Shown piece after piece: positions 64 through 19,114 of a stretch of DNA of 64,000 nt (its first letter is position 1; every line of letters starts with the position of its first letter). The stretch is taken from NCBI GenBank assembly GCA_903882745.1, contig CAIRYG010000005.1, positions 1-64,000 on the forward strand, given 5' to 3'. The stretch is from an uncultured Gemmatimonadota bacterium. GTDB lineage: Bacteria > Gemmatimonadota > Gemmatimonadetes > Gemmatimonadales > Gemmatimonadaceae. The translations under genes were made by a program, and so were the position numbers. The notes under the pieces were generated by a model. The model saw only the letters and a program-made list of their open reading frames with translations, was not told where the DNA came from and did no database searches.

Positions 64-1248
64 GTGAGAGGCGAACATGTCGCCGTGGAGCCCGCCTGTC
101 CACTCATCCGACCTGTTCAGATAACCGAGACCACTTCTCTAAGTCTCCTTTGGCAGCGGCTTTGCGCAGATGATGTAATCAACTATTTCAAGATCGATGA
201 GCAGGATCTTGATCGTATTGTCGACATCTTTGTCCGAGTCAACAGTGCGGGTGTACAGCTATCAAAGACCGACCTTCTATTCTCGACCATTGTCGCACAT
301 TGGGATGAGGGCAGAGCTAACATCGAAACGACCCTTACGTCCCTTAACGGAAAAGGTAGTCGATTCAAGTTCGACAACGACTTCATGATGCGGAGCTGTC
401 TGGTGTTAACGGATTTGCCGGTTCTCTTCAAGGCAAAATCCTTCCGCAAAGAAAGTATTGAAGAGATCGAGCGGAACTGGGATTCCATTCGGATCGCCCT
501 AGAGAAGACCGTCGACCTCCTTGTCGACTGGGGGTTTTCCGCTGAGACGCTTCCGACACTGAACGCCGTCATCCCAATCGCCTACTTCATCTACAAGGGC
601 GGTGATGTCGCATCGTCGAACGGAGCGCTGCGACAGTACCTGACGCGCGCTCTCATCAAGCAGATCTTTGCCAGCCAGACTGACAGGGTGCTCGCGGCGA
701 TTAGGGAGTATTTGCGTGTAATGCTAAGTGGTGGATCAGAGTACGAACTAAGAACGAAGCAGTTGACCATGAAAGATGTGGTCGAAATGAAACTTCCCGC
801 CGCCCGCAGTCTTGCGATAACAAGCGCCGACATCGACGACATGCTCGACGAGCAGAAGGGGCCCTATACGTTCATGCTTCTCGCGCTGCTATACCCTCAG
901 CTGAAGCTCGGACAGATTGCCTTCCATCAGGATCGTCTGCATCCGTGGAGTCAGTTTGCCAGCAAGAAGTTGGCAAAGCTCGGCCTTTCCGAAACCGAGA
1001 TCCGGAAATGGCAGGAGGATCGGGATCGCCTTCCCAATCTCCAACTACTCGAAGGGACAGAGAACCAGAGCAAGAACGACAGTCCGCTCCTAACCTGGAT
1101 GGGCACGCTCGGCCCCAGTCGAGCCCACTATGAGCAGGGTAACTACATCCCCTCAGGGGTTGGTCTCTCCTTAGACGACTTTCCAAGCTTCTTCATTGCC
1201 CGGAAGGACATACTGCGGGCACGACTTCAGGGTGTGTTCTCGGAATGA
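64..1248 (+). CDS. DUF262/GmrSD-type protein, N-terminally truncated
   Basis: This 394-residue reading frame matches the C-terminal half of DUF262/GmrS-type proteins. It has the family signature RVNSAGVQLSKTDLL near residue 57, where RVNSGG..LS..DLL is usual. Near the end it has HP, LPNLQLL and ENQSK motifs like the HNH-type (DUF1524) tail of these type IV restriction enzymes. The N-terminal DUF262 core with its DGQQR-type motif is absent. Frame 1 upstream is closed by TGA at 25-27 and 37-39, so the GTG at 64 is only the first possible start and the first ~25 residues look non-homologous. The gene is therefore either 5'-truncated or frameshifted. It overlaps pglZ by ATGA. GmrSD-like enzymes (such as BrxU) are known passengers of BREX loci, which fits this position. 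Confidence 0.6.
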   Translation: MRGEHVAVEPACPLIRPVQITETTSLSLLWQRLCADDVINYFKIDEQDLDRIVDIFVRVNSAGVQLSKTDLLFSTIVAHWDEGRANIETTLTSLNGKGSRFKFDNDFMMRSCLVLTDLPVLFKAKSFRKESIEEIERNWDSIRIALEKTVDLLVDWGFSAETLPTLNAVIPIAYFIYKGGDVASSNGALRQYLTRALIKQIFASQTDRVLAAIREYLRVMLSGGSEYELRTKQLTMKDVVEMKLPAARSLAITSADIDDMLDEQKGPYTFMLLALLYPQLKLGQIAFHQDRLHPWSQFASKKLAKLGLSETEIRKWQEDRDRLPNLQLLEGTENQSKNDSPLLTWMGTLGPSRAHYEQGNYIPSGVGLSLDDFPSFFIARKDILRARLQGVFSE

Positions 1249-3734
1249 AACGCATTTACGATGGCTTAGCGCGCGCGTTCGACCGCAACAGGCTCGTCTT
1301 CTGGTATGACGGCGCCGGCGAGTGGAACGACACATTCGACGGCTACGCCGAGGCAGGCGTCATCAAGCTGCGCGTCGCAAATGACGAGTTCGCGACCAAG
1401 GTCCGAGTCGTTCGTCAGCCCGACACCCGCTTTCTACTGTATGTGCCTGGCCCAAAGCCGAACGACGCCGACAACTGGTTGCTCGATCTTCTGCTCCAGG
1501 GCCACGAGTTCCGCGCTGACAAAGCTGCTCTTGGTGCCGAGGAAGCGGGACTTCCGCAGGAGTTCTGGTACCTCGCCGCAGACCACTCGGCGTTCTTCAA
1601 CAGCACCAAACGTATCTCCGCGTTGCGGGAGATTGTTGCCACGGAAGACCAAGCGCACGACGTCCGCCTCAAGATGATGTCCGTGCTCACAGGAACGCAG
1701 CCAGAGCTGGATACGCTTCTGCGTCACTTCCTCGCGCGAGGACTGAACGTCAAGCTAGCTGACCCTGTTTCAGAAGCACTTGCAGCGGCCGCTCTGGATG
1801 AGCCGTTCTGGCATGCTGTGGCTCAGCGTTTCGGGTACGCCGTAGCATCGCCATCCATTCGGGAGTTTGCCGTCACACTGTTCCGCGCCGCGAATCCGCT
1901 GGACAAGAAGGCCACCCTTCTGCCACATGCGACGGTATTCCTTCGAAATTGGAAGGACAGCCTCGCCCACAAAGCCGCGTACGAGCACTGGGCGAACACA
2001 CTGGAAGAAGACCTTCAGATCGCCGTTTCGCTCGGCGCCCTCGACGAAGGTGCGCTACTTGGCGAGAACGATACTTTCGAGCTGTTTGAGCGGTTCACGC
2101 TGCACCGGCTGGTGGGCGCATTCGAACACAACAGTCCCTCCGGAGATCTCCGCGCCGTTATTCAGCAGCGGCGCGGCTCCTTCTGGCGTGATAAGCACGC
2201 CGATGGATACGATGCGCTGGAACACGCTGTTACGCTTCGCGAGCTACTCGACGCGGCTGACTTAGAGTTCGAGTCGATGGAAGCTGGCGCGCGCCGATAC
2301 GCCGCGACGTGGTGGAAGATCGATATGGAGTATCGGTGCTGCTCGTACCATATGCGGCGGTACAGTCAGCCACAGGTCATGGAACCCGTGAGGGAATGGG
2401 TCGAGAAGCATTACGTCAACACTTTCCTGCTTCCCCTTGCTGAGCGTTGGGGTGATCAGGTAAAACGTCTCGATCGCTGGGATTGCAACGGCATTCCCGG
2501 GCAACGGCGATTCTTCGAAACTTTCGTGCAACCTTTCTTGTCGAAAGGGCAGAAGGTGTTCGTCATCATTTCCGACGCGCTCCGCTACGAGGCCGCTGCG
2601 AACTTTGCTCAGCGGTTGGGAGAATCGAACCGGTGGTCCGCCGAGGTGGAGCCCATACTCAGCGCTCTTCCCTCCTTTACGCAACTTGGCATGGCGTCCC
2701 TACTTCCGGGCCGAGAGTGCTCGATCGACGCAGTCACAGGTAGCGCGAGCGTTGATGGACGGAGTGCGACGGGTACGCCGAATCGGAGCGTGATTCTGGC
2801 GCTCGCCTGCGCTGGACGCGGGACCGCCATCCAAGCCGAAGACTTTCTCACCATGAACGCGAGAACGGATGGTCGCGATCTCATGCGTGACAACGACGTC
2901 GTGTACATCTACCACAACAAGATCGATCACATCGGCGACAAGACGACCACCGAGGTCCAGACGACCGACGCTGTCGCCCAAGCGTTCGAGGAACTAGAAA
3001 CGATCATCAAAAAGGTCGCCACTATCAATGGCACGAACATGCTGTTGACCGCGGACCACGGATTTCTCTTCCAGCAAACAGCCGTCGAGGAAGGAGATAT
3101 GACTTATCTTCCACACGCGGCAAAGTGGGGCAGTCAAAGTCGTCGCTACGCGCTTGGCTGGGGGATCGCAGCGGTCGCCGACGTCAAACAGTTCAGCGCC
3201 GCGGCACTTGGTGTAGGCGGCGATTGGACCGGAGCATTTCCCCTGGCCCTCGGTCGCTTTCTCGTTCGCGGTTCAGGCAACCGGTACGTGCATGGCGGAA
3301 TTAGTCTTCAGGAAGTGATCGTCCCGGTGGTGAAGATCCGCAAGACGCGCACCGATGATGTCGTTCAGGTGGGTATCGATATCCTGCGGGTGCCGCCCAA
3401 GATTACGACTGGGCAGCTTGCGCTTTCGGTCTATCAAGAGCAAGCCGTGGCAGACAAAGTGCGGCCGCGCACTCTTCGCATCGGCCTGTTCGCTAAGGAT
3501 GGCGGTCAGTTGTCGGAGTTGAAGACCATCACCTTCGACTCGAAGGAGCCGGAGGCGCGAATGCGCGAGACTCCGGTGCTCCTCGTGCTCTCTGGTGCCG
3601 CCGACGGTCAGAACAATCGCACGGTCGAACTTCGGCTCGAAGAGCCAGTTCAAGGGACGAGCCAGTGGGTCACGTACAAGATGCACGACCTCAAAATTCA
3701 GAAGGCCTTTATGAGCGACTTCGATGACGTCTGA
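1245..3734 (+). CDS. pglZ: BREX type 1 phosphatase-like protein PglZ
   Basis: The 829-residue product matches BREX-1 PglZ in length and architecture, with an alkaline-phosphatase-superfamily core in the second half. Visible metal-site motifs are FVIISDALRYEA with Asp444 and LLTADHGF around residues 600-607. PglZ is an essential BREX component; recent family work points to nuclease or phosphodiesterase activity rather than simple phosphatase activity. It starts at an ATG overlapping the stop of the DUF262-like gene and ends 11 nt inside brxL, so translation is coupled. The order DUF262-like, pglZ, brxL is that of the 3' half of a type 1 BREX operon; brxA, brxB, brxC and pglX must lie upstream of the window if the system is complete. 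Confidence 0.9.
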   Translation: MKRIYDGLARAFDRNRLVFWYDGAGEWNDTFDGYAEAGVIKLRVANDEFATKVRVVRQPDTRFLLYVPGPKPNDADNWLLDLLLQGHEFRADKAALGAEEAGLPQEFWYLAADHSAFFNSTKRISALREIVATEDQAHDVRLKMMSVLTGTQPELDTLLRHFLARGLNVKLADPVSEALAAAALDEPFWHAVAQRFGYAVASPSIREFAVTLFRAANPLDKKATLLPHATVFLRNWKDSLAHKAAYEHWANTLEEDLQIAVSLGALDEGALLGENDTFELFERFTLHRLVGAFEHNSPSGDLRAVIQQRRGSFWRDKHADGYDALEHAVTLRELLDAADLEFESMEAGARRYAATWWKIDMEYRCCSYHMRRYSQPQVMEPVREWVEKHYVNTFLLPLAERWGDQVKRLDRWDCNGIPGQRRFFETFVQPFLSKGQKVFVIISDALRYEAAANFAQRLGESNRWSAEVEPILSALPSFTQLGMASLLPGRECSIDAVTGSASVDGRSATGTPNRSVILALACAGRGTAIQAEDFLTMNARTDGRDLMRDNDVVYIYHNKIDHIGDKTTTEVQTTDAVAQAFEELETIIKKVATINGTNMLLTADHGFLFQQTAVEEGDMTYLPHAAKWGSQSRRYALGWGIAAVADVKQFSAAALGVGGDWTGAFPLALGRFLVRGSGNRYVHGGISLQEVIVPVVKIRKTRTDDVVQVGIDILRVPPKITTGQLALSVYQEQAVADKVRPRTLRIGLFAKDGGQLSELKTITFDSKEPEARMRETPVLLVLSGAADGQNNRTVELRLEEPVQGTSQWVTYKMHDLKIQKAFMSDFDDV

Positions 3735-5865
3735 TCCACTGCCTGCCAATGAGGGCGAGGTAGCAGCGCCAGCGGTGCATGCGCCGACCGCACTCGACCG
3801 AAAGATCCTCGAGAACTTTCCCGGGCTCGTTGTGCGAAAGGACTTGACGCAGGGGCTGAAGCAGAACGCGGTCGTTCCGACGTATGTGCTCGAGTATCTA
3901 CTCGGCCAGCACTGTGCAACTGACGACCCGGCAGTCATCGCCGCAGGCCTGGAGTCCGTCCAGCGCATTCTCGCCAAGCACTACGTGCATCGAAATCAGG
4001 CGGAGCTGGTCAAGTCCACGATCAAGGAGAAGGGTCGGCACAAGGTAATCGACAAGCTGACTGTGGAGCTGAACGATAAGGGCGGATTCTACGAGGCCGA
4101 GTTCACAAATCTCGGGCTCAAAAAAGTGCCTGTCGCCGATGATTTCGTGCGCCGGTATCCGAAGCTGCTGGTTGGCGGGATCCGGTGCATCACGGATGTC
4201 ACCTACGAAGTGATGGAGGATCCGAAGGGAAGTCCATGGCAGATCGAGACGTTGAAGCCCATTCAGGTCGCGAACGCAAACGTCGATGAATACCTTGCCG
4301 CGCGAGCGAAGTTCACAACGGACGAGTGGATGGATGTGCTCATGCAGAGCATGGGCTTCAATCCTGAGTTCTTTGGGCGCCGAGCGAAGCTGCTGACCCT
4401 GATTCGCCTCATCCCGTATTGCGAGCGCAACTACAACCTTCTCGAGCTCGGTCCAAAGGGAACTGGCAAATCTCACATCTACGCCGAGTTTTCCCCGCAC
4501 GGGATGCTCATTTCTGGTTCTGAGGTGACGGCGCCAAAGCTATTCGTCAACAACAGCGCGCGTGGAAAGATTGGTCTCGTTGGTTATTGGGACTGCATCT
4601 GTTTTGATGAATTTGCCGGCAAGGACAAGAAGATTGATAAGTCACTCGTCGACATCATGAAGAACTACATGGCCAACCGAAGCTTCTCGCGCGGCATCGA
4701 GCAGCTCACGGCGGAGGCCTCCATGGTGTTCATGGGCAATACACAGAAGTCTGTTGCATACATGCTCAAGCATTCGCACTTCTTTGAACCGTTGCCGGAC
4801 AAGTACATCGATTCCGCTTTTCTGGATCGCATCCATGCGTACAACCCCGGATGGGAGGTCGCGCCGATTCGGCATGAGCTATTCTCGCATGGGTACGGCT
4901 TCGTGGTGGACTATATCGCCGAGGTACTGAAGCACCTGCGTACGGAAGACTTTTCGGGGGCGTACAAGAAGCACTTCGAAATTGCCGAAGAAGTCTCAAC
5001 GCGTGACCAAACCGGCTTTGAGAAGACGTTCTCGGGGCTGATGAAGATTCTCTATCCAGACGGAAAGTCTACGACGGCAGAGGTCGAGGAGCTCCTGTCG
5101 TTTGCAATGGAGTGTCGCCGCCGCGTACGCGAGCACATCCTGCGAATCGACGCGACCTTCAAGCGAAACGAATTCGCATATCGACCAGTCGGTGGGGGCG
5201 CGACGGTTCGGGTCGTGACGCCGGAAGAACTGCAGTATCCGGCATTTGCAGCTCCACCGACTCGCGAGGCCGAAGACGCGCCCCAGCCGGTTGGCGGCGA
5301 GCCTTCAGGAGCCGCGGCAGTCCCTCGCGACAGCGCTGGGCCGGCTGCCCTTCCAGTCGCTCCGAACGAAGCAGCAAGCAATACTGCTGCAATTCACGTA
5401 GTGGTTCCTGAGAACGCCAAGGGTTGGAGCTATCGACGGCTCTTTGCTGGATACTTAGCGGGCGCGACAAAGATCACGATCCGGGATCCCTATGTCCGCC
5501 AGTTCTTCCAAGTGCGAAACCTCGTAGACCTCTTGCATCTGGTGTACGAAATGGCACCGGAGGGGGATGAGGTTGCGGTACACCTGACAACGTACGCGGA
5601 CTCAGAAACCGCCGAGAGGCAGGAGGAGTTCTTGAATCAGGTCGTCAAGAACTTCGTCGGGTCTAAGGTGGCCTTCACCTGGGACATCGACTCAAGCCCC
5701 AATTTCCATGCGCGGAGTATCGTGACGGATACGGGCTGGAAGATCAGTCTGGATAGAGGACTCGATCTCTTTCAGCGGTTCGAGGGGGGGCCGCTGTCGC
5801 TGGAGCAGGGCAGTCAGGAGGCGCGGTTGACGCGTGGGTCTGAGATCAGCTATCTAAGAACGTAG
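3724..5865 (+). CDS. brxL: BrxL AAA+ protein with MIT_C C-terminal domain
   Basis: This 713-residue protein has the BrxL AAA+ core (TIGR02688-type): Walker A GPKGTGKS at residues 243-250 and a Walker-B-like CFDEF with Asp295-Glu296. A proline/alanine-rich linker covers about 510-555. The C-terminus is unusual. Residues ~560-705 do not look like the Lon protease domain expected in BrxL. They match the phospholipase-D-like MIT_C domain of MITD1: GWSYRRLFAGYL, then ITIRDPYVRQF, then a TDTGWKISLDRGLDLFQRF block. No HKD phospholipase motif is present, and in MITD1 this fold binds membranes. BrxL forms DNA-binding AAA+ rings required for phage exclusion. The gene overlaps pglZ by 11 nt. The MIT_C call comes from motif recognition, and its function here is inference. 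Confidence 0.85.
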   Translation: MTSDPLPANEGEVAAPAVHAPTALDRKILENFPGLVVRKDLTQGLKQNAVVPTYVLEYLLGQHCATDDPAVIAAGLESVQRILAKHYVHRNQAELVKSTIKEKGRHKVIDKLTVELNDKGGFYEAEFTNLGLKKVPVADDFVRRYPKLLVGGIRCITDVTYEVMEDPKGSPWQIETLKPIQVANANVDEYLAARAKFTTDEWMDVLMQSMGFNPEFFGRRAKLLTLIRLIPYCERNYNLLELGPKGTGKSHIYAEFSPHGMLISGSEVTAPKLFVNNSARGKIGLVGYWDCICFDEFAGKDKKIDKSLVDIMKNYMANRSFSRGIEQLTAEASMVFMGNTQKSVAYMLKHSHFFEPLPDKYIDSAFLDRIHAYNPGWEVAPIRHELFSHGYGFVVDYIAEVLKHLRTEDFSGAYKKHFEIAEEVSTRDQTGFEKTFSGLMKILYPDGKSTTAEVEELLSFAMECRRRVREHILRIDATFKRNEFAYRPVGGGATVRVVTPEELQYPAFAAPPTREAEDAPQPVGGEPSGAAAVPRDSAGPAALPVAPNEAASNTAAIHVVVPENAKGWSYRRLFAGYLAGATKITIRDPYVRQFFQVRNLVDLLHLVYEMAPEGDEVAVHLTTYADSETAERQEEFLNQVVKNFVGSKVAFTWDIDSSPNFHARSIVTDTGWKISLDRGLDLFQRFEGGPLSLEQGSQEARLTRGSEISYLRT

Positions 5866-5912: not shown

Positions 5913-6311
5913 CTAACCTACTCGGAAACGCTTCATTGCATCCGCGGCATTCTCATCGCACGGCTCGATGATTCCTCGTCGAAGCCAGAAGTGGCTTCCA
6001 CAGCCATCTAACCTCCACACGGATGGCGATATCGTAGGTCGTCCTAGAAAGTCGACACGCACCGACCAAGATGGATGCCGACGTTGATCGAGATTGAGGT
6101 GCACGACGTCCGTACAACCACAGGGGCAAGCCAGGACGAGCCACTTCGGGCGTTCAGCGCCGAGTATGATAACGCACTCGCGCGCCTCGAGCGCTTGATT
6201 CGCGGGCTGTGCTGTTTGAGCTCGCACGAAATACACACGCGAGTCAGCGCGAGCTCGAAGTTGACCGGCCAATTCGAACCAAAACCAAAGCGCCCTACGA
6301 AAAAGAGTCAT
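5913..6311 (-). CDS. DUF6527 protein of a Bub operon (BubE-like)
   Basis: A 132-residue protein with the DUF6527 signature: PKWLVLACPCGC (Cys62, Cys64, Cys66), an RRHPSWSV block, ISPSVW, and CGSHFWLRRGII with Cys104 and His107. DUF6527 proteins are fixed partners of bacterial ubiquitination-like (Bub) operons, where they have been proposed to be peptidases acting on the ubiquitin-like protein. A longer reading frame starts at 6380. I chose ATG 6311 because it overlaps the upstream stop as ATGA and because homology begins only downstream. It is the last gene of the minus-strand operon and converges on brxL with a 47-bp gap. Confidence 0.85.
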   Translation of the reverse strand: MTLFRRALWFWFELAGQLRARADSRVYFVRAQTAQPANQALEARECVIILGAERPKWLVLACPCGCTDVVHLNLDQRRHPSWSVRVDFLGRPTISPSVWRLDGCGSHFWLRRGIIEPCDENAADAMKRFRVG

Positions 6312-7723
6312 CCCGTGCGGTCCAGATATGGAACAATATCTCCACGACCCCAATACGACGGATCTTCGCAAACAGAACAATTGGGATTGCGTTCCGCTCC
6401 CGGCCGGCGTTCAGACGACCGATGAGCAAATCGAACGCGGTGGTCTACGTGTCCGACGGGTCCACGAAAACCCTGTATTCGGTGCAGGAACTCCTCCATA
6501 GCAAGAATTGCAACGCCGGTGGTAAATGTAACGACGGCAGGACTTGGATTTCCCTCGCCCTCGACGTACGCCTCCGCCAGGTCGCGCGCATAGCGAAGCG
6601 GATCCATTCGCTCCAGTTGCTCCGCACGCGCGCGCGCCAAATTGACCACGCGGTGACATAGCAGACATCGCGTTCCGGGAGTCAATACCGTGACGCGCGC
6701 CTCAACATTGAGGCGCGCACCCGCATCCGACGTATTGACTGTGCTTCCGAGTCCAAGATCGATCACCGGCTTCAGGTAGAAGTATGCCAGTCGATTCAAT
6801 AGAAGTCTGCCATCATGATCATCGGTACAGCCAAAGACCAAGTCGCACGCAGCGAGCGCCGTTCGCACTGACGGATCATGAAGGTGCGTCGCGAAACGCA
6901 CGACCCTCGTTCCAAGTCCCATTCGCTCCACTTCTCGCGCCATGACGTCGACTTTGAGTTTCTTCTGGTCCGCATCGTCGAGTGTCGCACCGTGAAGCCT
7001 GCCGAGATTGGTGTGATCTACATAGTCGGGGTCAACAACGAGCAATTGTCCGACACCTAGGCGGGCGAGTTGCATGGTTAGTGCGCTTCCCGTTCCCCCC
7101 ACTCCGACCACACCGACCCGCAGTGCGCGCAGGTCGTCCGTAAGTGCTCCACCGAGTGCGAGTGCCTGTCGATTCCACGCTCTCGCCAGTTCCCGAGCGA
7201 CCGGGCGTGCGTCGTGGCGAAGCCGAAACCGATTTCCGACGGTCAGAATACGGTCGCTGCATTCTACTTTCTCTGGCGACGCCCACTTACGGACCAACCA
7301 AGTATCGTCCGGCGCGAGCAAGATGCTCAAGAATGGGTCCGTTGTCCGGTTGCGTCGCTGAAGCAGTGAACAGAGTTCGGACTCGCTGGTATCGTCCTGG
7401 CGAGACCAATTGCTTGGACCGTGGGGGTGTGAATGCACGACACCCAAGAGCCACTTTTCTTGACGCGCACGACGGAGAAGACGCACAAACGTCTCCGTCC
7501 GCCACGTAATCTGAACCGGAGACGCTGTCAGAATATCTGTGTGGGCAATCGGAACGACTTCGTGCAAAAGGAAACGCTCAGTTGGAGCGCCAGTCCACGG
7601 GTCGTGGGGAATTGTTGCGCGGCCGAGTAGCACGTACGCGACTCCTTCGTTCTCGCCGTTCGAGAATACGAGGTCGCGCAACCGCGATTCATCGGCTTCG
7701 GTCATGACGACGGTGAACGTCAT
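6308..7723 (-). CDS. JAB deubiquitinase-like / E1 (ThiF) fusion
   Basis: A 471-residue two-domain protein. Residues 1-~145 are a JAB/JAMM metallopeptidase with every zinc-site residue present: Glu26, His97-x-His99, and Ser107-x-x-Asp110 at canonical HxHx7SxxD spacing. Residues ~195-450 are a ThiF/E1 adenylation domain: nucleotide loop GVGGTGS (207-213), the DPDYVDHTNLGR segment, Cys293 and Cys299 as candidate catalytic cysteines, and one CxxC pair (353/356). The second CxxC expected for a structural zinc is not obvious. It would adenylate and conjugate the ubiquitin-like protein encoded upstream and also remove it. I chose ATG 7723 over a longer frame at 7816 because of the ATGA overlap with the E2 gene. 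It resembles Cap2/Cap3 chemistry in one chain, but the neighbours indicate a Bub operon, not CBASS. Confidence 0.92.
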   Translation of the reverse strand: MTFTVVMTEADESRLRDLVFSNGENEGVAYVLLGRATIPHDPWTGAPTERFLLHEVVPIAHTDILTASPVQITWRTETFVRLLRRARQEKWLLGVVHSHPHGPSNWSRQDDTSESELCSLLQRRNRTTDPFLSILLAPDDTWLVRKWASPEKVECSDRILTVGNRFRLRHDARPVARELARAWNRQALALGGALTDDLRALRVGVVGVGGTGSALTMQLARLGVGQLLVVDPDYVDHTNLGRLHGATLDDADQKKLKVDVMAREVERMGLGTRVVRFATHLHDPSVRTALAACDLVFGCTDDHDGRLLLNRLAYFYLKPVIDLGLGSTVNTSDAGARLNVEARVTVLTPGTRCLLCHRVVNLARARAEQLERMDPLRYARDLAEAYVEGEGNPSPAVVTFTTGVAILAMEEFLHRIQGFRGPVGHVDHRVRFAHRSSERRPGAERNPNCSVCEDPSYWGRGDIVPYLDRTG

Positions 7724-8121
7724 TGCGTGGCCGCTCCCAGCGCCAGCTTCATGCGTGCAATCATTGTCCAAATACCGTCCTTTCCCGGTTGCCATTCCGG
7801 ATTGTGCCTTGACCATCGTTGCCAGTCTCGGTCAATGAAGCGCTGAGTGGTATCAGCGGCACGCGGGCAGGCACCGCTCTGCTTGAGGCGGGCCCAGGGA
7901 TCGAGGTAGAACATGTCGATCGGTACGTCGGGATAGCCGGGGGGTAGCAGAAAGAGGACATCTGTCTTCGCGATGTCGTACTTGTCAGTCGGAAGACAAA
8001 CATCGCGAAGAATCACAGCGGCCTGTCCGCCTTCCCTGATCTCCTCGAATGGTAGCGCCGTGCGTTCGAGATAGGCGCGGTCTCGACTGGGCAATACCAG
8101 CATAGCGGGTGCGTCGATCAT
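7720..8121 (-). CDS. E2-like protein (Prok-E2_E family)
   Basis: A 133-residue protein matching the Prok-E2_E family found next to multi-ubiquitin proteins. Key features are LPPGYPDVPIDMFYLDP (59-75), the E2-like YP loop, followed by WQRWSRHNPEW (100-110) and a C-terminal helix. Two cysteines could accept the ubiquitin-like protein: Cys85 in SGACPRAA, just after the conserved strand, and Cys42. Cys85 sits nearer where E2 catalytic cysteines fall, but I cannot decide between them. The ATG at 8121 overlaps the stop of the multi-ubiquitin gene (TGATG), and its own stop overlaps the next start (ATGA). This tight coupling suggests stoichiometric synthesis of the conjugation enzymes. Confidence 0.88.
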   Translation of the reverse strand: MIDAPAMLVLPSRDRAYLERTALPFEEIREGGQAAVILRDVCLPTDKYDIAKTDVLFLLPPGYPDVPIDMFYLDPWARLKQSGACPRAADTTQRFIDRDWQRWSRHNPEWQPGKDGIWTMIARMKLALGAATQ

Positions 8122-8591
8122 CAGCGCCGCCCCTCGGTGGTCGCCCCTCGGGCGGAGAAGAAACGTTCCGCGTCTTTGCCGTCGAGTGAGGCTGACTTGC
8201 CGGTCGCGATGAGGTGGTCGTCGCCGCCAACGACCTCTTGCCAGACGTCGAAAGTGGCCGGATCTACCCCGGCAAGTTCCTTGAGATCTTCGGCAGAAAT
8301 TGAAACACTGCCCCAGTCAAACTGAACGTCATCGACGAAGAGTCGGAAGGTTCGGTCACTCTTCCAAGTTTGAAAACGTTCGACCTCCATCGAGGAGAGG
8401 TCGACCTCTTGATTCAACCGAAGAAGGGCACGCTGGCGATTCTTGAGTACCTGAGCGATCTGGAACTCTGCCGCTGGCACTCGCTCGGCGGCGATGAGGA
8501 TCTCCTCGGCAGTCACTTTCGACTTTGGCAGGACAACCTTCTGAAGATCGACTACGACGACAACTGGTTCTGTGGTGTGCGTGGTCATCAT
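8121..8591 (-). CDS. Multi-ubiquitin-type ubiquitin-like protein (BubA-like)
   Basis: A 156-residue protein consisting of two related beta-grasp-like units, roughly residues 9-80 and 81-150. Each shows the pattern of a short strand, V/I-S/T-AEDL or AEEI helix, then a strand with D/L. The second unit opens with FRLFVDDVQFDWGSVSISAE. It fits the Multi_ubiq family that heads Bub operons. The C-terminus is ...GATTEGRR, not a free Gly-Gly, so it would need trimming or uses a different acceptor chemistry. It starts at ATG 8591 with GGAG 8-9 nt upstream. As first gene of the operon it follows a good minus-strand promoter at 8658-8686. Confidence 0.85.
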   Translation of the reverse strand: MMTTHTTEPVVVVVDLQKVVLPKSKVTAEEILIAAERVPAAEFQIAQVLKNRQRALLRLNQEVDLSSMEVERFQTWKSDRTFRLFVDDVQFDWGSVSISAEDLKELAGVDPATFDVWQEVVGGDDHLIATGKSASLDGKDAERFFSARGATTEGRR

Positions 8592-8657
8592 GATGATTTC
8601 GTCTCCAATGGCGAAATGGAACAGAGTGGGCGAATCTGGAGTAGCTAGTTATTATGG

Positions 8658-8686
8658 AAATTATGGTTGTTTTGTGTATATGTCAA
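8658..8686 (-). promoter_or_regulatory. Promoter of the Bub operon
   Basis: On the minus strand TTGACA (8686-8681) is followed after 17 nt by TAATTT (8663-8658); a 16-nt register gives ATAATT. The transcript would start near 8651, about 60 nt before the multi-ubiquitin ATG. Its -35 lies only 24 bp from the -35 of the divergent RHH operon, so one regulator bound between them could control both. Confidence 0.6.
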
Positions 8687-8709
8687 GGCCAGTAATAGGC
8701 TAACAAGTA

Positions 8710-8738
8710 TTGACAAATGTTTGGTATTCTGGTATTCT
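8710..8738 (+). promoter_or_regulatory. Promoter of RHH-GNAT-XRE-ImmA operon with tandem operator-like repeats
   Basis: TTGACA (8710-8715), 17-nt spacer, TATTCT (8733-8738). Two perfect head-to-tail copies of GGTATTCT (8723-8730 and 8731-8738) fill the 3' spacer and the -10 box. Short tandem repeats in this position are typical RHH-repressor sites, so autoregulation by the first gene is likely (inference). A strong ribosome-binding site, GGAAGGAGGAG, precedes the ATG at 8767. Confidence 0.65.
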
Positions 8739-8766
8739 TTGAGCATAACGAAGCGGAAGGAGGAGT

Positions 8767-8991
8767 ATGCGGGAGAAGGAAAGGGCAAAAAAGACTATGA
8801 CTCTCAACCTCTCGGATGAGGAAATGAGTGTCGTGGAGTCACTCGCGCGCGAGAAGGACCTCTCGAAGACTGCGCTGATTCGTCAAGCGCTTCGTCTCTA
8901 TCAAGCCGTCGACGTTCGCCGAGCTCGGGGTGACAAGCTCATGGTCGAGAACGACGAGACCAAGGAAAAGTCAGAACTGGTGCTCCTGTGA
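8767..8991 (+). CDS. Ribbon-helix-helix (CopG-like) DNA-binding protein
   Basis: A 74-residue protein with a clear ribbon-helix-helix fold: strand KKTMTLNLS (9-17), helix EEMSVVESLAREK, turn DLSKTALIRQALRLYQ. It is the first gene of a four-gene operon whose other members encode a GNAT acetyltransferase, an XRE protein and an ImmA/IrrE protease. The ATG at 8767 follows an excellent Shine-Dalgarno sequence, and its stop overlaps the next start as GTGA. An RHH protein paired with a GNAT enzyme is the layout of TacAT/AtaRT-type toxin-antitoxin systems, so it may be an antitoxin and autorepressor. It could equally be the regulator of the divergent Bub operon. Confidence 0.85.
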   Translation: MREKERAKKTMTLNLSDEEMSVVESLAREKDLSKTALIRQALRLYQAVDVRRARGDKLMVENDETKEKSELVLL

Positions 8992-9605
8992 CGTCAGTGC
9001 CGCAACCGGTTTGGCTGCGGCACTCAGACGGTTCGCCGGTAGCTGCGAGTCTGGTTCGAGGGCTAAACGAGCAGCACATCGAACTCTGGAGAGCGCACTG
9101 GTACCCCGCGCGCGAAGCGGCTCTCTCGAAGCAGGCAGCTTCTGGCCAGAAGCTGCCTGAGCACGCTCGTTGGGATTGGGAGCGTAAGCTGCGAAAGGTC
9201 ACCGGACTTCTCGGGTTTGCCGGCTATGCGATCGAATGCGATGGCATTCCCCAAGGCCTCATGCTCTTGGATTTGAATCAAACGGCGAAGGTTTCCAAGC
9301 AGAAGGGCAAGCCCCTAGTCTACGTCCAGTACGTGGAGGTCGCCCCGTGGAACTCAGAGTTGCTTGTGAAGCCAATACGGTACCGCGGTGTGGGGTCACT
9401 TCTTATTCGGGCAGCGATTGAACGAAGTATCGATGAAGAATTCCATGGTCGCGTTGGTCTGGTTGCGTTACCACAGGCCGAGGGGTTCTACCGGAATACG
9501 ATTGGAATGACAGACCTCGGGCCGCAGCTGGAGGCTCAGGGATTGCGATATTTCGAGCTGACTGAAGCGCAGGCCAAAGCATTCGTAGCGAAGACTGGAG
9601 GATAA
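8988..9605 (+). CDS. GNAT-family acetyltransferase
   Basis: A 205-residue protein with the acetyl-CoA-binding motif A of GNAT enzymes, YRGVGSLLIRAAI at about residues 132-144, preceded by the YVQYVEVAPWNS strand and followed by VGLVALPQAEGFYRN (the Y/F after the A-B strands is typical). It is longer than classical GNAT toxins (about 160-175 residues) because of an N-terminal ~60-residue extension rich in Trp and charged residues. The GTG start overlaps the RHH stop. The substrate is unknown: it could be a tRNA-acetylating toxin held by the RHH partner, or an enzyme that modifies a component of the neighbouring conjugation system. The first option follows gene-order precedent; the second is speculation. 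Confidence 0.75.
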   Translation: MTSVPQPVWLRHSDGSPVAASLVRGLNEQHIELWRAHWYPAREAALSKQAASGQKLPEHARWDWERKLRKVTGLLGFAGYAIECDGIPQGLMLLDLNQTAKVSKQKGKPLVYVQYVEVAPWNSELLVKPIRYRGVGSLLIRAAIERSIDEEFHGRVGLVALPQAEGFYRNTIGMTDLGPQLEAQGLRYFELTEAQAKAFVAKTGG

Positions 9606-9606
9606 G

Positions 9607-10080
9607 ATGCCGCTCAAGTGGACGCCGCAGATCTGCGATATGTTGGCCACGATGGAGGACGGGCAGGAGGTCACCGCGGGCGTGAGTCTCCCCGAAGAAC
9701 GCGAGACCGACCACGAGACGCCAGGAAAGGCTGGAGCTCTCGCACTAGGCAGATTCGTCAAACTTGCCCGTCGCAAGGCGGGCCTAACGGAGCAGCAGCT
9801 TGCCGGTGTATCGGGACTAGAGGTCGAGGAGGTCCAGGGAGTGGAAGCGTCAATCGCCGACGCCTGCGAACCCCGGGTCGTCATTCGTCTGTCGAAAGCT
9901 CTGAAACGGCCCCAAAAGGAGCTGTTGTACTTGGCCGGACTAATGAATCCCCGCGAAGTCGGAGTGGGCTATGAGGGTATAAAATTTGCTGCGCACTCAG
10001 ATCCGTCGACGGCCCTGACGCACGAGGAAGAAGTCGAGTTGAGTGCCTTCATACAATTTCTCTCGACTCGCTTGAAGTGA
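9607..10080 (+). CDS. XRE-family helix-turn-helix regulator
   Basis: A 157-residue protein with an HTH_XRE domain at residues ~46-110: LGRFVKLARRKAGLTEQQLA, recognition helix GLEVEEVQGVEAS, then LSKALKRPQKELLYLAGL. The N-terminal 45 residues and the acidic C-terminal 35 residues (THEEEVELSAFIQFLS) flank it. The start ATG lies 1 nt after the GNAT stop with GGAGGATAAG upstream. It overlaps the ImmA/IrrE-like gene by GTGA. The pair is equivalent to ImmR/ImmA of mobile elements, in which the protease destroys the repressor on a stress signal. It is therefore a candidate sensor-repressor for the island. Confidence 0.85.
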   Translation: MPLKWTPQICDMLATMEDGQEVTAGVSLPEERETDHETPGKAGALALGRFVKLARRKAGLTEQQLAGVSGLEVEEVQGVEASIADACEPRVVIRLSKALKRPQKELLYLAGLMNPREVGVGYEGIKFAAHSDPSTALTHEEEVELSAFIQFLSTRLK

Positions 10081-11021
10081 CCTCATCGTCTCCTCGCACT
10101 AGACCCTTCGCACGCGAAATTCGCGTAAGTGACGGTTCGAAGCGCGAAATTGACCAGCATGTCGAGAAGGTCTTGCGCGGCCTAGGCAACCCGCCACCGC
10201 CACTGGACCTTCGTGAAGTCCGCGAGCTTCTACGGCTCGACATGGGCTATTACTCGTCGGGGGACGATAGCGCGCTCCGCGAGAAGCTGAGTAAACTGAG
10301 GGTGGCTGGGAAACAGGTGCTCGCTAGACCAGGCCTACTTGTTGACGCCGTGCGCAAGCACAATCTTCGGGCGCTATATCTTCCAGACCGGAAGCGCATT
10401 CTCCTCGACGAGGACATGCCGAAGAAGAAGCACCGATGGAGCGAGGCACATGAGGTTGGACACAGCCTTCTCGATTGGCATCATGAAACCATGCTTGGTG
10501 ACACTGAGTCAACACTGACACCGCTCTGTCGAGCTCACATCGAAGCCGAAGCAAACTTCGCCGCAGGACGGTTGTTGTTTCTTGGTGCGCGATTCGATGA
10601 CGAGATTGTCGCACACCCTCCGACAATTGCATCCGTTCAGGCTCTCGCGGCGACGTACGGCAATTCCATTACCTCGACGCTGTGGCGAATGGTCGAGCAA
10701 TATCCGGAGCCCGTTCAACTGGTTGGCTTGGTCAGCGATCATCCGCGATATTCTGCGTCGAATACTGTTGTGGGCGAATCTCCTGTTCGACACACTTTCT
10801 TCAGCCGTACTTTTCTGCGATCGGTGGGCCCGGTCGCGAATGAAATACTATGGGCGCACGTTCAAAGCTACAGCTCTTACGTGAAGCGCGGTCCTTTAGG
10901 TCAGGCAGAGGTGTTTCTCGCTAGCAAGTCCGGCGAGTTGGTCCCATTTGTTTTTGAGACTTTCTACAATGGATATGATGCACTAACGCTCGGCGTGAAT
11001 TCGCTTCGCAAGTCAGGCTAG
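10077..11021 (+). CDS. ImmA/IrrE-family metallopeptidase
   Basis: A 314-residue protein with the zinc metallopeptidase signature HEVGH at 125-129 and downstream HIEAEANFAAGRLL (154-167), the second metal-ligand helix of the ImmA/IrrE family. Family members cleave partner XRE repressors (ImmA, IrrE/PprI). Here the partner is the immediately upstream XRE protein, whose stop overlaps this GTG start. The C-terminal ~110 residues carry no motif I recognise. This is the last gene of the operon, and a ~95-bp non-coding gap follows. If the analogy holds, it would release repression of the operon, and perhaps of the divergent Bub genes, after a phage or DNA-damage signal (inference). Confidence 0.88.
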   Translation: MTSSSPRTRPFAREIRVSDGSKREIDQHVEKVLRGLGNPPPPLDLREVRELLRLDMGYYSSGDDSALREKLSKLRVAGKQVLARPGLLVDAVRKHNLRALYLPDRKRILLDEDMPKKKHRWSEAHEVGHSLLDWHHETMLGDTESTLTPLCRAHIEAEANFAAGRLLFLGARFDDEIVAHPPTIASVQALAATYGNSITSTLWRMVEQYPEPVQLVGLVSDHPRYSASNTVVGESPVRHTFFSRTFLRSVGPVANEILWAHVQSYSSYVKRGPLGQAEVFLASKSGELVPFVFETFYNGYDALTLGVNSLRKSG

Positions 11022-12938: not shown

Positions 12939-15900
12939 ATGGCCACGGTTACTCTCACCACCATCCTCGACCCGGCCGCTCTCCTGGAGCGGTCGCTCGC
13001 GGGGTTGTTGCCGCTCGCCCCGTCGACAGCGGAGCATCCGTGGCCCACGCTCGCCTCGTGGATCGTGCTCCGGCAGGGCGGGCTCCGAGACGATCTGCAC
13101 CGCATGGCCGCCAACCGCGGTGTTGCAGGCTGGTTTGACCCACCGATCTGTCTGTTTAATGAAGTCGGCGAGCACTGGAGCACTCAATCGTCGCTTCCGG
13201 CGCTTACCGAACCAGAACGGCTGGCCATGCTTTCGGGGATCCTGGACCGCTTCGGCGGCACAATCTTCTCGCGAGCAACAGGGTCCGACGCGTGGGTGCC
13301 GCCCGTCGATCGCCTGATCGGCGAGCTGATCAGCGATGGCATTGACTGCGACGAGTTCACACGAGCGCTCACCACGACGGCTTCCGACACCTTTGCTCGC
13401 GCTCGAGCAGAGGTGCTCGGACGCATCTATCACGAATGGATTGCCGCACTCGCCGCGGCACAGAGGACCGACGGACGCGATGCACGGGTGCGTCTCGCGC
13501 GCGAGATTTCCGCAAATACCGATGCATTCGCCAAGCAACTCGGCGGCCGTCGCGAGGTACGGATCGTTGGTCTCGCCGATCTGCGCGGTGGATGGCGACA
13601 GCTCATTGAGGCGCTCGCCGCAACTCCAGCGCTCGACCGCGTGGAGCTGCTCTGTTCCTCCCGCGTTGAACTTCCTGCCTCGCTCAGTGTCGAGTACGGG
13701 CCAGCTACGCTGATCCCGTCATTCGCTGATGCGCTCTTTACAGAAACACTGATTCCGAAACCGAGCGTGCGGCTCGTGGAGGCTCCGGATGCCGCACGCG
13801 AAGTCGAGCTGATTGCCGTCAGGGTGCGCGCCCTGATCGATGCAGGTGTGTCGCCCTCGCGCATCGCGGTGGTGGCGCGCCAGGCGCGGCCACTCGTGAA
13901 TGACATGTCCGACGCGCTTGCCCGCCTCGGCGTTCCCGCCTCGGCGCGCCGTCGAACAGGACTCGCACATACGGCGCCGGCGCGGGCCCTGCGTGCGATG
14001 CTGTCCGTGATTGTCGACGGGTGGTCGCGACACAGCGTGGTGGAGCTCGCCGAACACCCTCTGCTCGCTACTGGCGTTGATCCCACCGTTGCGAACTTTC
14101 TTGGATACGCACAGCAGATGCGCTCACGAGCCGACTGGCACAATGCCCTCGCGGCACTCGTCACGCGGTGCGAGAAACACGACCGTGGGGAAGATGCCGA
14201 GGACGAGTACCCGAAGCGGTTACCGCCGACAGAAAAGGTCGCCGCGACGCTCGCGGCATGGGACCTGCTCAGTGATCGCCTTGCTGTGCTTGAATCGGTT
14301 CGGCCGCTCGCCGAGTGGTTTGAGTGGGTGCACGAGGTGTTGACCGGCGGTGCGTGGGCAATTTCCGATGCGCTGACCCAGCAGTTGCGCGACGTGGATG
14401 TTTGGCAAGCCGATGTGCGCGCTCGTGACTTGATTGCTCAGCACGCGATGGCCTGGAGCGCGGCTGTCCGGAAGTTCGGCGCCGACTCTGCGCCCGTTGA
14501 TGCTGCTTCCTTTGCGGGGCGACTCGAACTGCTGCTCGAGCAAGACCTGATCACCCCTCCGCTCACGGATTTCGGCGTGGTGGTCGCAGAAGCGCTCGCA
14601 GCGGGATGGCGTGGCTTTGATCACCTGTTCGTGATCGGGTTGTCGGCTGGGATCTTTCCGCAGCGACCCGGCGCCGGCGGTGTACTCGACGACGATGATC
14701 GCCGTGCGCTGATTGCGGCTGGTCTCCCGCTCGACGCCCCCGATGCCTGGCGCACGCGTGAAAGCGAACTGTTCCGTGTGCTGTGCGCTGCGCCGACACG
14801 CGGCTTGACCATAAGCTGGCCGGTGCTCGATTCCGGTGGGCGCGACACCGTACGCTCGACGTTCGTGGATGAAGCGGCGGCGGTTCTTGCACGCGCGCAT
14901 GGTGTGGAGGCCAGCGATGAGGAGCTCGAGCGCACGGGGGTACTTGAACGCATCCCCACCTTCGAGGAACTGGTTCCCGGGTTTCCGGTCGTGCGCGACG
15001 CGGAATCCGTCGCGCATGCACAGGTTGCAGCGGCGCGCGAAATTGGGCGCACAAAAGCGCCGAGTGCTTGGAACGGGTTGATTGAGGATCCCGCGCAACG
15101 GGACTGGATTGCGAAGAAGTACGACGAATCATTTGTATGGTCTGCCACGCAGCTGGAGCAAGCCGCGAAGTGCCGATGGCACTGGTTTGCGCAGCGTCTC
15201 CTGCGGCTTGATCCCCAGGCGGAGGCAGACGACCAAATGGAGCCGACCGTTCGCGGTACGTTGTTGCACGACGCGCTTGATCGCTTTTTCAAGGCGGCGC
15301 GCGCGCAACAAGCTGGGGTGGTGGCGTATCTTCGCGCGCCCGACGCGGACTGGGCACGACCGCTTATGGTGAAGGCACTCGACGAGGCGTGGGCAGCCGC
15401 AGCCGCGAGCAAGACGTGGCTCGGTCCGGAGGCGTTACGGAGCACAGCACGCGCCGAGCTGCAGGCTGATTTGCTCCGCTATCTCGATTTTGAGATCGAG
15501 TACAATGACAAGTCGTTCAATCCGAGAACGAACGCGTCGAAGCAGATCCGCACTGGAGCTTTTGAGGGTGAGTTCCGGTTCGATAGGGTCGAACTCCACG
15601 GTGACGGCGTGACTTTTCTGCTTGGCGGTTCTGTCGATCGTGTTGATCTAGGGCAGGACGATCGAATCGAGGGCGCCGAACAGTATATGGCGGCAATCGA
15701 CTATAAGTCGTCGAAGTACTCCGTACCTGCGGCGGGAAATAAAGAGGCCTGGGGCGACCGCGTCGTACTGCAGGTTCCGCTCTACGCAGCGGCAATGCAG
15801 AAAGAGCGGCCTGACCTGAAGTTCGCGCGCATGGAGTATCGGTCCATTCGCCCGCCTGAAGTACTGCACGTGCTGTCGTTGGCACCGGTGAAGGCCAATG

Positions 15901-16085
15901 CCGTGCAGGATGCTCCAGACGCTCAGATCAAGCTGCAGGATGCGCTCGATGGGGCTGGAGCGCGTATTTCACAAATTCGTGCTGGGGATTTACCCACCAG
16001 CCCGACCAAGTCGTGCGCCTGTTCCCCATACTGTCCTGCACGCGACATTTGCCGAATTCCTGGCGGACCGGAGGAGACGCGGTGA
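12939..16085 (+). CDS. AddB-like helicase-nuclease subunit
   Basis: A 1048-residue protein with the layout of AddB-type subunits: a degenerate helicase-like body and a C-terminal PD-(D/E)XK nuclease. Visible elements are SATQLEQAAKCRWHWF (~residue 730-745, first iron-sulphur Cys), RGTLLHDALDRFF, and a catalytic AAIDYKSSKY around residue 920. A final cysteine cluster CACSPYCPARDIC completes the 4Fe-4S site typical of AddB. With the next gene it would form an ATP-dependent exonuclease/helicase that processes double-strand ends for recombination and degrades linear foreign DNA. Its stop overlaps the addA-like start (TGATG). The ATG at 12939 has no strong ribosome-binding site. Confidence 0.85.
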   Translation: MATVTLTTILDPAALLERSLAGLLPLAPSTAEHPWPTLASWIVLRQGGLRDDLHRMAANRGVAGWFDPPICLFNEVGEHWSTQSSLPALTEPERLAMLSGILDRFGGTIFSRATGSDAWVPPVDRLIGELISDGIDCDEFTRALTTTASDTFARARAEVLGRIYHEWIAALAAAQRTDGRDARVRLAREISANTDAFAKQLGGRREVRIVGLADLRGGWRQLIEALAATPALDRVELLCSSRVELPASLSVEYGPATLIPSFADALFTETLIPKPSVRLVEAPDAAREVELIAVRVRALIDAGVSPSRIAVVARQARPLVNDMSDALARLGVPASARRRTGLAHTAPARALRAMLSVIVDGWSRHSVVELAEHPLLATGVDPTVANFLGYAQQMRSRADWHNALAALVTRCEKHDRGEDAEDEYPKRLPPTEKVAATLAAWDLLSDRLAVLESVRPLAEWFEWVHEVLTGGAWAISDALTQQLRDVDVWQADVRARDLIAQHAMAWSAAVRKFGADSAPVDAASFAGRLELLLEQDLITPPLTDFGVVVAEALAAGWRGFDHLFVIGLSAGIFPQRPGAGGVLDDDDRRALIAAGLPLDAPDAWRTRESELFRVLCAAPTRGLTISWPVLDSGGRDTVRSTFVDEAAAVLARAHGVEASDEELERTGVLERIPTFEELVPGFPVVRDAESVAHAQVAAAREIGRTKAPSAWNGLIEDPAQRDWIAKKYDESFVWSATQLEQAAKCRWHWFAQRLLRLDPQAEADDQMEPTVRGTLLHDALDRFFKAARAQQAGVVAYLRAPDADWARPLMVKALDEAWAAAAASKTWLGPEALRSTARAELQADLLRYLDFEIEYNDKSFNPRTNASKQIRTGAFEGEFRFDRVELHGDGVTFLLGGSVDRVDLGQDDRIEGAEQYMAAIDYKSSKYSVPAAGNKEAWGDRVVLQVPLYAAAMQKERPDLKFARMEYRSIRPPEVLHVLSLAPVKANAVQDAPDAQIKLQDALDGAGARISQIRAGDLPTSPTKSCACSPYCPARDICRIPGGPEETR

Positions 16086-19000: not shown

Positions 19001-19114
19001 GACGTGCGGTTCACGCTGGTCAGCGTCCCGTCGGGAGCCACCACGGATGTCGTTCCGACCGACGATGTTCCTGCGCTGGTTATGGCTGTTCGGGCCTGGG
19101 CGGGTGGTGGGTGA
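16085..19114 (+). CDS. AddA-like UvrD/RecB-family helicase-nuclease
   Basis: A 1009-residue SF1A helicase: Walker A DAGAGSGKTT (residues 22-31), motif II LLVLDEFQDVDPAQ, motif III-IV GDPKQSIYRFRRAD, motif V ITSIHSAKGLEWPIVF and motif VI LWYVASTRAKTRL. The C-terminal ~150 residues are a RecB-type nuclease with VDVKSSS and YSIQAAIYADAA (QxxxY motif). A Gly/Ser-rich linker precedes the nuclease domain. The ATG at 16085 overlaps the AddB stop by one base; an upstream in-frame start at 16013 lies inside addB and adds only non-homologous residues. Together the two genes form an AddAB-like complex for end resection. No Chi-recognition residues can be judged by eye. Confidence 0.88.
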   Translation: MPTLTNSQLQVITSTASRLLVDAGAGSGKTTTVVQAICHQLGVTVPQEPPIAPVASPLTFEQIAAITFTNQSAADLKRKMRAALRAGGRRDLAADVDSSRIGTIHSFCGDVLRDFALRAGVRPGRRVLDEGEGASIARECAREALHAAIEGGGVTGLQELLMGRRLKDVTPWIEMIASDADRLAHWDAHRDTLRPHEVAVLEIATRAKALRNEWLDREGLLDFDRMIVETRDLLQHEEVRHAVQQRIRLLVLDEFQDVDPAQRAIAFLLGGLLHDDPSPTRIVLVGDPKQSIYRFRRADVTLWNAVAARFRDGAGVVLPLSDNFRSKAAILGMVDHAVGRTLGNALSGERREFEVDYQSLVPRAEQAEGDRAVEFLLVPQDKEGEKAPNASAVRSLEATAVARRITEMATNGTPYGDIAILLAGWGDVERYVEALEKVGVPTYLLRSEGFWEDRAVLDCILALRAIRDPADDVAMVGFLKSPFVGVRDDTLLALARRANGGPIGEALADVAVERALLDRASAILQRLRELRDRVSVHELISRLVWDSGFFGVLGLNVRDGQQAVANVRKLIRMASTTPGQSLGEFLRTVGDQRERKDRVAPERLHRERSNVVTITSIHSAKGLEWPIVFWCDLVRGVAPEKEKCITGRDAFRVKQTAGDEDEDPVFAAMVEERALEERAENARLWYVASTRAKTRLVLSGVPLGTMRAAGSPAEMFREVFPSLGVASEIEYTSTDGTTYHATTSLCDGVAAPNVPAVAGVGDLSLPPEGVRVPAGRTRLSATQLMQFAHDPESWWNRSVRRFAASGGGSSAGGSSAGGVSRADAGAIATGVIVHAVLERLERDGTDLDDLIESVSAGGDGSAGSDGDQPALDSPLRLAWRAYIRERVEAAANSPVWREVAEQTSARRELSFTRVLADGTTINGALDLASMDDRSARIVDVKSSSAGAGALAERYSIQAAIYADAARAIGGASDVRFTLVSVPSGATTDVVPTDDVPALVMAVRAWAGGG

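Follow-up and report, generated by a model that had tools for sequence, protein, structure and literature searches.

How is a bacterial Bub operon, which encodes a ubiquitin-like conjugation system, kept off and then switched on? The question is raised by a 64,000-nucleotide stretch of DNA (hereafter the window; contig CAIRYG010000005.1 of assembly GCA_903882745.1) from an uncultured Gemmatimonadota bacterium, in which a Bub operon occupies the minus strand at 8591-5913 beside the end of a BREX locus. Divergent to it we found a four-gene plus-strand operon (8767-11021), overlooked in an earlier annotation made from the sequence alone (the original prediction), which encodes a ribbon-helix-helix (RHH) protein, a GNAT acetyltransferase, an XRE-type helix-turn-helix (HTH) protein and an M78 metallopeptidase. 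Sequence comparisons make it likely that the Bub operon is repressed through tandem operator-like boxes in the shared promoter region and is switched on by this cassette, a mobile, protease-based and probably DNA-damage-sensing controller.

The four minus-strand genes were present at exactly the coordinates given in the original prediction, and their junctions read TGATG, ATGA and ATGA as it had claimed, with overlaps of one and four bases; the true starts of the JAB-E1 and DUF6527 genes are at 7723 and 6311. Its family assignments (Multi_ubiq, Prok-E2_E, ThiF/JAB and DUF6527) were checked against the corresponding profiles, and all four proteins exceeded the curated Pfam cut-offs, with Multi_ubiq matching twice in the ubiquitin-like protein (Ubl). 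The closest solved structures were Citrobacter BubCD for the JAB-E1 protein and Citrobacter BubB for the E2-like protein, whereas multi-ubiquitin proteins were the closest solved proteins for the Ubl. The operon thus combines a multi-unit Ubl, a Prok-E2_E protein without a classical cysteine, a JAB-E1 fusion with an intact JAMM site and a DUF6527 protein. Class 6e operons were described as encoding a polyUbl, an E2-like fold without cysteine, a JAB domain fused to E1 and a metal-binding "Y" protein (Iyer 2006, PMC1779556), and they are now named Bub (PMC13373217). The Pfam and PDB matches and this layout bear out the predicted Bub identity and gene order; on sequence grounds, the genes form a Bub conjugation operon of class 6e (multi-Ubl), a further member of a type first noted in 2006.

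In regards to the divergent cassette, the M78 alignment contains HEVGH at residues 125-129, and E156 and E158 are invariant. The AlphaFold model of the GNAT (pLDDT 88.6) matches the folds of generic GNATs, and the GNAT profile gave no match among the PDB sequences. A search of phages for this GNAT gave no match, and a search of viral contigs gave pattern matches and no relative.

We examined the 30 GTDB Bub loci whose upstream sequence exceeded 4 kb. Homologues of all four cassette genes, in the same order, face Bub in 13 of them; the remainder have an HTH-M78 pair (6 loci), an M78 gene without a clustered HTH (2), an M78-UvrD fusion (7) or no assigned controller (2). The cassette-Bub loci range over Pseudomonas, Mesorhizobium, Devosia, Sphingomonas and a planctomycete. 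An M78 hidden Markov model placed a peptidase near bub in 29/30 loci, in three architectures. The M78-UvrD helicase fusion gene lies upstream of bub on the same strand (L033, L036, L043, L044, L046, L053 and L056), and both members that were scanned carry a PD-(D/E)XK nuclease domain; the fusion is perhaps another type of controller or sensor.

An independent census was anchored on the GNAT rather than on Bub, covered plasmids and 395 genomes of the window's phylum, and was made by reading the neighbourhoods. It gave 20 loci with a complete cassette after one near-duplicate was dropped. The divergent partner was Bub in nine, CBASS in four (cyclase, HORMA, AAA and SAVED effector), a Bil-like operon in four (JAB and E1 matching BilC and BilD, or a related Ubl-CEHH-JAB-E1 set) and none in three; among the Bub partners, that of pCAR3 is an incomplete operon, and the Bil-like assignment is least certain for L102. 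In L102, the genes behind the cassette (2382-5643) encode a multi-Ubl protein, an unmatched middle protein, JAB and ThiF, and look intermediate between Bub and Bil. The cassette is carried on 16 plasmid records. In a tree built from GNAT, M78 and HTH together, the CBASS-linked cassettes group in a single clade that lies among Bub-linked cassettes, whereas the Bil-like partners fall in several places; in the E1 tree the cassette occurs on several separate branches. This partner switching, together with the several E1 branches, is the pattern of an exchangeable module.

Two further sets of relatives were noted. Cyanobacterial plasmids (L092 and L104-L106) encode shorter GNAT relatives without the remaining cassette genes in the records read, and on one of them the GNAT lies beside DISARM drmD and a DNA methyltransferase. 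In one genome of the window's phylum (L070, 5952-19500), a Bub-type operon is preceded by a gene resembling a WYL (CapW-type) regulator, and the RHH-GNAT-HTH-M78 cassette accompanies a CBASS operon only a few kb away.

Palindromic boxes resembling TAGCTA lie upstream of RHH, in the promoter region shared with the divergent operon, and the array is present before Bub, CBASS and Bil-like operons alike. Across 31 loci, 51 box pairs are spaced at exactly 11 bp, 26 at 22 bp, 10 at 33 bp and none at 10 or 12 bp, against about 0.07 pairs per distance expected from shuffles; the regular expression for the boxes was written after the alignments had been seen. A 32-bp motif, scored by leave-one-out, exceeded 20 in 28/33 cassette loci, whereas the best of 198 shuffles reached 10.9. 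Examples of loci with a strong array are those of Pseudomonas fluvialis and Sphingomonas palmae. Among 30 Bub-type loci that lack the cassette, no score rose above zero; L031, listed with these motif controls, carries an RHH gene at the end where it is cut and is counted as a cassette locus. Loci with a plain HTH-M78 pair had no boxes (motif scores of -4 or lower), which ties the boxes to the RHH-GNAT form. The recurrence of the cassette with this common docking pattern suggests, at the level of sequence, a mobile on-switch.

The boxes of the window itself, at 8686-8702, are the sole RGGCYA-N5-RGGCYA site in 64 kb (0.09 expected), arose in 4/5000 shuffles of the window's intergenic region, and sit just before the TTGACA of the plus-strand promoter-like site. 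A triple-box pattern matched 5 of the 395 genomes of the phylum, namely two cassette loci and three apparent short tandem repeats; because a reversed control also matched in a number of genomes, this pattern alone is not specific. It also matched 50 viral contigs, a number judged close to what chance alone would give in so much DNA, and these were set aside.

RHH dimers can line up on 6-bp palindromes at one-turn spacing, as in repressors of the MetJ/CopG type. The one-turn spacing of the 6-bp palindromes fits such a line-up, which makes the RHH protein the best candidate for binding the boxes. Boxes suited to RHH, together with the likeness of the HTH-M78 pair to CapH-CapP and DdrO-IrrE, led us to a model in which a shared divergent promoter is repressed and then relieved by a protease. 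The Bub operon is probably not constitutive, as its divergent promoter region is shared with RHH-GNAT-HTH-M78. Tandem boxes at 11-bp spacing would most likely be bound by side-by-side RHH dimers, alone or with the GNAT, and the bound boxes would keep both divergent promoters repressed. By analogy, the HTH-M78 pair would work like CapH-CapP or DdrO-IrrE, with DNA damage or phage-made single-stranded DNA as the putative activator of the peptidase; single-stranded DNA activates the CapP peptidase (PMC13373217). The activated peptidase would then cleave the DNA-binding repressor, and the immune operon would be expressed.

Several observations weigh against this model. Many of the box-bearing loci are from related Rhizobiales, and the box pairs are therefore not independent; the boxes nonetheless occur in gamma-, beta- and alphaproteobacteria, a planctomycete and the window's phylum. 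The boxes of the window are degenerate, and their leave-one-out score of 6.7 is below that of the best shuffle, although it exceeds the 95th percentile of the shuffles (1.2). The M78 subfamily is weakly similar to the solved CapP (7T5T, E 0.015; IrrE, 7e-5), the HTH protein was not matched to CapH, and the fold matches of the GNAT do not separate a toxin from other acetyltransferases. Moreover, the three census cassettes without a divergent immune operon have no such partner to control.

An RHH gene followed by a GNAT gene, with overlapping ends, is the classical toxin-antitoxin layout, the RHH C-termini are conserved as in antitoxins, one fold match of the GNAT is a bacterial toxin (7BYY), and 16 plasmid records carry the cassette. 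The RHH-GNAT pair might thus be an ordinary GNAT-RHH toxin-antitoxin of the TacAT/KacAT kind that stabilises a mobile defence cassette, with the boxes as its autoregulatory operator and Bub regulated by HTH-M78 (CapH-CapP) only. We regard this as rather unlikely. The four genes keep their order together across phyla and across changes of partner, the array is kept before Bub, CBASS and Bil-like operons alike, which a plain addiction module would not need, and the RHH protein matched RHH_1 and gave no match up to E 0.01 to DUF1778, the antitoxin that usually accompanies the large family of such systems. It is likewise doubtful, in our judgement, that the toxin-antitoxin-like RHH(-GNAT) pair itself gates the Bub, CBASS and Bil operons by occupying the 11-bp-phased TAGCTA boxes before them, with M78 freeing both the GNAT and the immune operon upon infection or DNA damage.

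A different possibility, which we hold to be plausible but do not expect to be correct, is that HTH-M78 is a plain divergent CapH+CapP pair, that the HTH and not the RHH protein binds the TAGCTA boxes, and that Ye 2026 had already included the cassette in its CapH+CapP-linked Bub operons. The PADLOC capP match of the M78 protein (3.4e-16) is consistent with this, as are the HTH-M78 pairs without RHH-GNAT that precede other Bub operons and the 219/544 Bub operons reported to be flanked by CapW or CapH+CapP (PMC13373217). However, the absence of boxes from the plain HTH-M78 loci argues against the HTH protein as their binder, and exact 11-bp tandem arrays of 6-bp palindromes generally suit RHH arrays better than XRE operators. 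Control by the complete four-gene cassette through RHH-bound boxes is the reading that we favour.

The residues of the Bub proteins were counted in alignments of 50-52 loci, with fewer sequences at some positions. The JAMM site, predicted to be intact, was conserved among the aligned relatives at E26 (41/45) and at H97, H99, S107 and D110 (each 47/50). For the DUF6527 protein the predicted cysteine/histidine set held in part: C62 and H107 were conserved in 52/52, whereas C66 and C104 were present in 42/52. The invariant residues in the 52 sequences are Cys62, Pro63, Ser97 and His107, and DUF6527 is possibly a Ser-His enzyme as well as a zinc protein; its predicted fold (pLDDT 79.5) gave no PDB match better than E 0.6. 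On three Rhizobiaceae plasmids (L081, L083 and L101), two uncharacterised genes and a dCTP deaminase (dcd) gene lie downstream of DUF6527. E1 conserves cysteines only at C299, within the adenylation motif, and in two CxxC pairs. In the E2-like protein, a cysteine was conserved in just 2/50, and Ser104 of the WQRWSRH motif was present in 50/50.

The Ubl of the window ends in TTEG-RR, whereas those of most relatives end in TTEG or are fused in frame to E2 just after TTEG. In many alphaproteobacteria (Rhizobiales L029-L054 and the three plasmids named above), a single open reading frame encodes Ubl and E2 with the junction immediately after TTEG, an arrangement implying that the JAMM domain cuts the Ubl free. 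The TTEG-RR tail, set against the TTEG of the relatives, likewise makes JAMM trimming likely. The two-unit Ubl would probably be trimmed by the JAMM domain, which removes the RR after TTEG, adenylated by the E1 domain and handed to E2. The E2, in which no cysteine is conserved, probably uses the invariant Ser104 to form an ester intermediate, and the JAMM domain, perhaps with DUF6527, may remove or mature the conjugates. The Bub E1 and E2 reportedly act via oxyester intermediates. We consider it quite improbable that the E2-like protein lacks activity and, as Iyer 2006 (PMC1779556) proposed in terming it inactive, binds the Ubl as an RWD-like domain, with E1 transferring the Ubl directly to targets or forming a thiocarboxylate: Ser104, Arg102, Arg105 and His106 are nearly invariant in WQRWSRH, even though the protein has no conserved cysteine.

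The original prediction had also inferred an anti-phage role from the adjacent BREX tail. The tail is real (GmrSD-type/HEC-05, PglZ and BrxL at 64-5865), and its GmrSD-type gene lacks the N-terminal half in the window, which starts at a contig end. Contig C3 ends with brxA, brxB and a cut brxC (L110 5396-8990), and the window's contig starts with the GmrSD-type gene, pglZ and brxL; a single BREX locus has thus probably been divided between two contigs by an assembly gap, and no full pglX was found. The inference from the neighbourhood was not borne out: PglZ or BrxL, the markers used, occurred near none of 54 other Bub-type loci within flanks of up to about 10 kb (some shorter), and as far as tested the association is incidental. 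The convergent ends of brxL and DUF6527 are only ~47 bp apart, which might suggest that Bub is a defence system mainly through membership of a BREX island and that this proximity is functional. We consider this highly improbable, given the result for the 54 loci, the convergent orientation without co-transcription and the further genes of its own (brxABC on C3) that the BREX locus has. According to a 2026 paper (PMC13373217), protection against phage had yet to be demonstrated for Bub operons, and an immune role for Bub is better supported by the same divergent cassette also fronting CBASS and Bil-like operons.

The features of the Bub operon, the cassette and the intergenic region are summarized in Table 1. 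After the cassette, AddB-like and UvrD/AddA-like genes follow on the plus strand (12939-19114); their PADLOC GajB matches probably reflect generic helicase similarity.

Table 1. Coordinates of the features in the window.
Feature	Coordinates	Strand	Remarks
DUF6527 gene	5913..6311	-	132 aa; Pfam 3.3e-21, 75.4 bits
JAB (JAMM)-E1 fusion gene (bubCD-like)	6308..7723	-	471 aa; Pfam ThiF 2.2e-33 and Prok-JAB 4.5e-07; Citrobacter BubCD 5e-29
E2-like gene (bubB-like), Prok-E2_E	7720..8121	-	133 aa; Pfam 2.7e-42, 143.8 bits; Citrobacter BubB 1e-8
Ubl gene (bubA-like), two Multi_ubiq units	8121..8591	-	156 aa; Pfam Multi_ubiq 2e-23, 82.8 bits (cut-off 24.5); C-terminal tail compared
Weak promoter-like site of Bub operon, TATACA-18-CATAAT	8651..8680	-	9/12 matches
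Two operator-like boxes, AGGCCA-N5-AGGCTA, 11 bp apart	8686..8702	.	Degenerate remnant of the TAGCTA array of relatives
Promoter-like site of controller operon, TTGACA-17-TATTCT	8710..8738	+	AGGAGG at 8758
Ribbon-helix-helix (CopG/RHH_1) protein	8767..8991	+	Pfam RHH_1 2.3e-05 (above cut-off); conserved across 18 first-set loci
GNAT acetyltransferase	8988..9605	+	205 aa; Pfam Acetyltransf_10 4.7e-05 (above cut-off)
XRE-type HTH protein, CapH-like position	9607..10080	+	Pfam HTH_31 1.9e-05 (slightly below cut-off); conserved across 17 first-set loci
M78 (ImmA/IrrE/CapP-type) metallopeptidase	10077..11021	+	Pfam 7.6e-07; PADLOC capP 3.4e-16

The Bub operon of the window shares its four gene families and their order, the JAB-E1 fusion and an E2 without a conserved cysteine with the known class 6e operons, including that of Citrobacter (Iyer 2006; Gong 2025; Ye 2026; BubCD/BubB, 9EA4, 9EAE). 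It is set apart by its two Ubl units, its DUF6527 gene and the divergent cassette; of the two CxxC pairs in its E1, the first does not line up with cysteines in Citrobacter BubCD. The cassette resembles the CapH+CapP controller of CBASS and Bub operons in its XRE-type HTH protein beside an M78 protein with an intact HExxH and a capP match, but adds the RHH and GNAT proteins, a distinct M78 subfamily and the array of boxes at 11-bp spacing. Like CapK+CapS (EMBO J 2026, PMC13373217), it is modular and fronts Bub, CBASS and Bil operons; the proteins of CapK+CapS are unrelated (a kinase and a STAS-wHTH protein), and its half-site is TTAA in contrast to the TAGCTA boxes. With the toxin-antitoxins TacAT and KacAT it shares an RHH gene followed by an overlapping GNAT gene, but its RHH protein matches RHH_1 and not DUF1778, its GNAT has 205 aa, and HTH-M78 follows in all listed loci. 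The literature searched contained no mention of GNAT with CapH/CapP or Bub and no description of the four-gene form, the primary Bub papers lying outside that search. With its four genes and phased boxes, the cassette appears to be a new form of a known type of controller.

How costly bacterial immune operons stay off and then switch on is an open question. Bub was without demonstrated anti-phage activity in the 2026 paper (PMC13373217), possibly because it is silent under the conditions of testing. A cassette with its own conserved operator, common to Bub, CBASS and Bil-like operons, would make the expression of Bub and the protection that it may confer directly testable.

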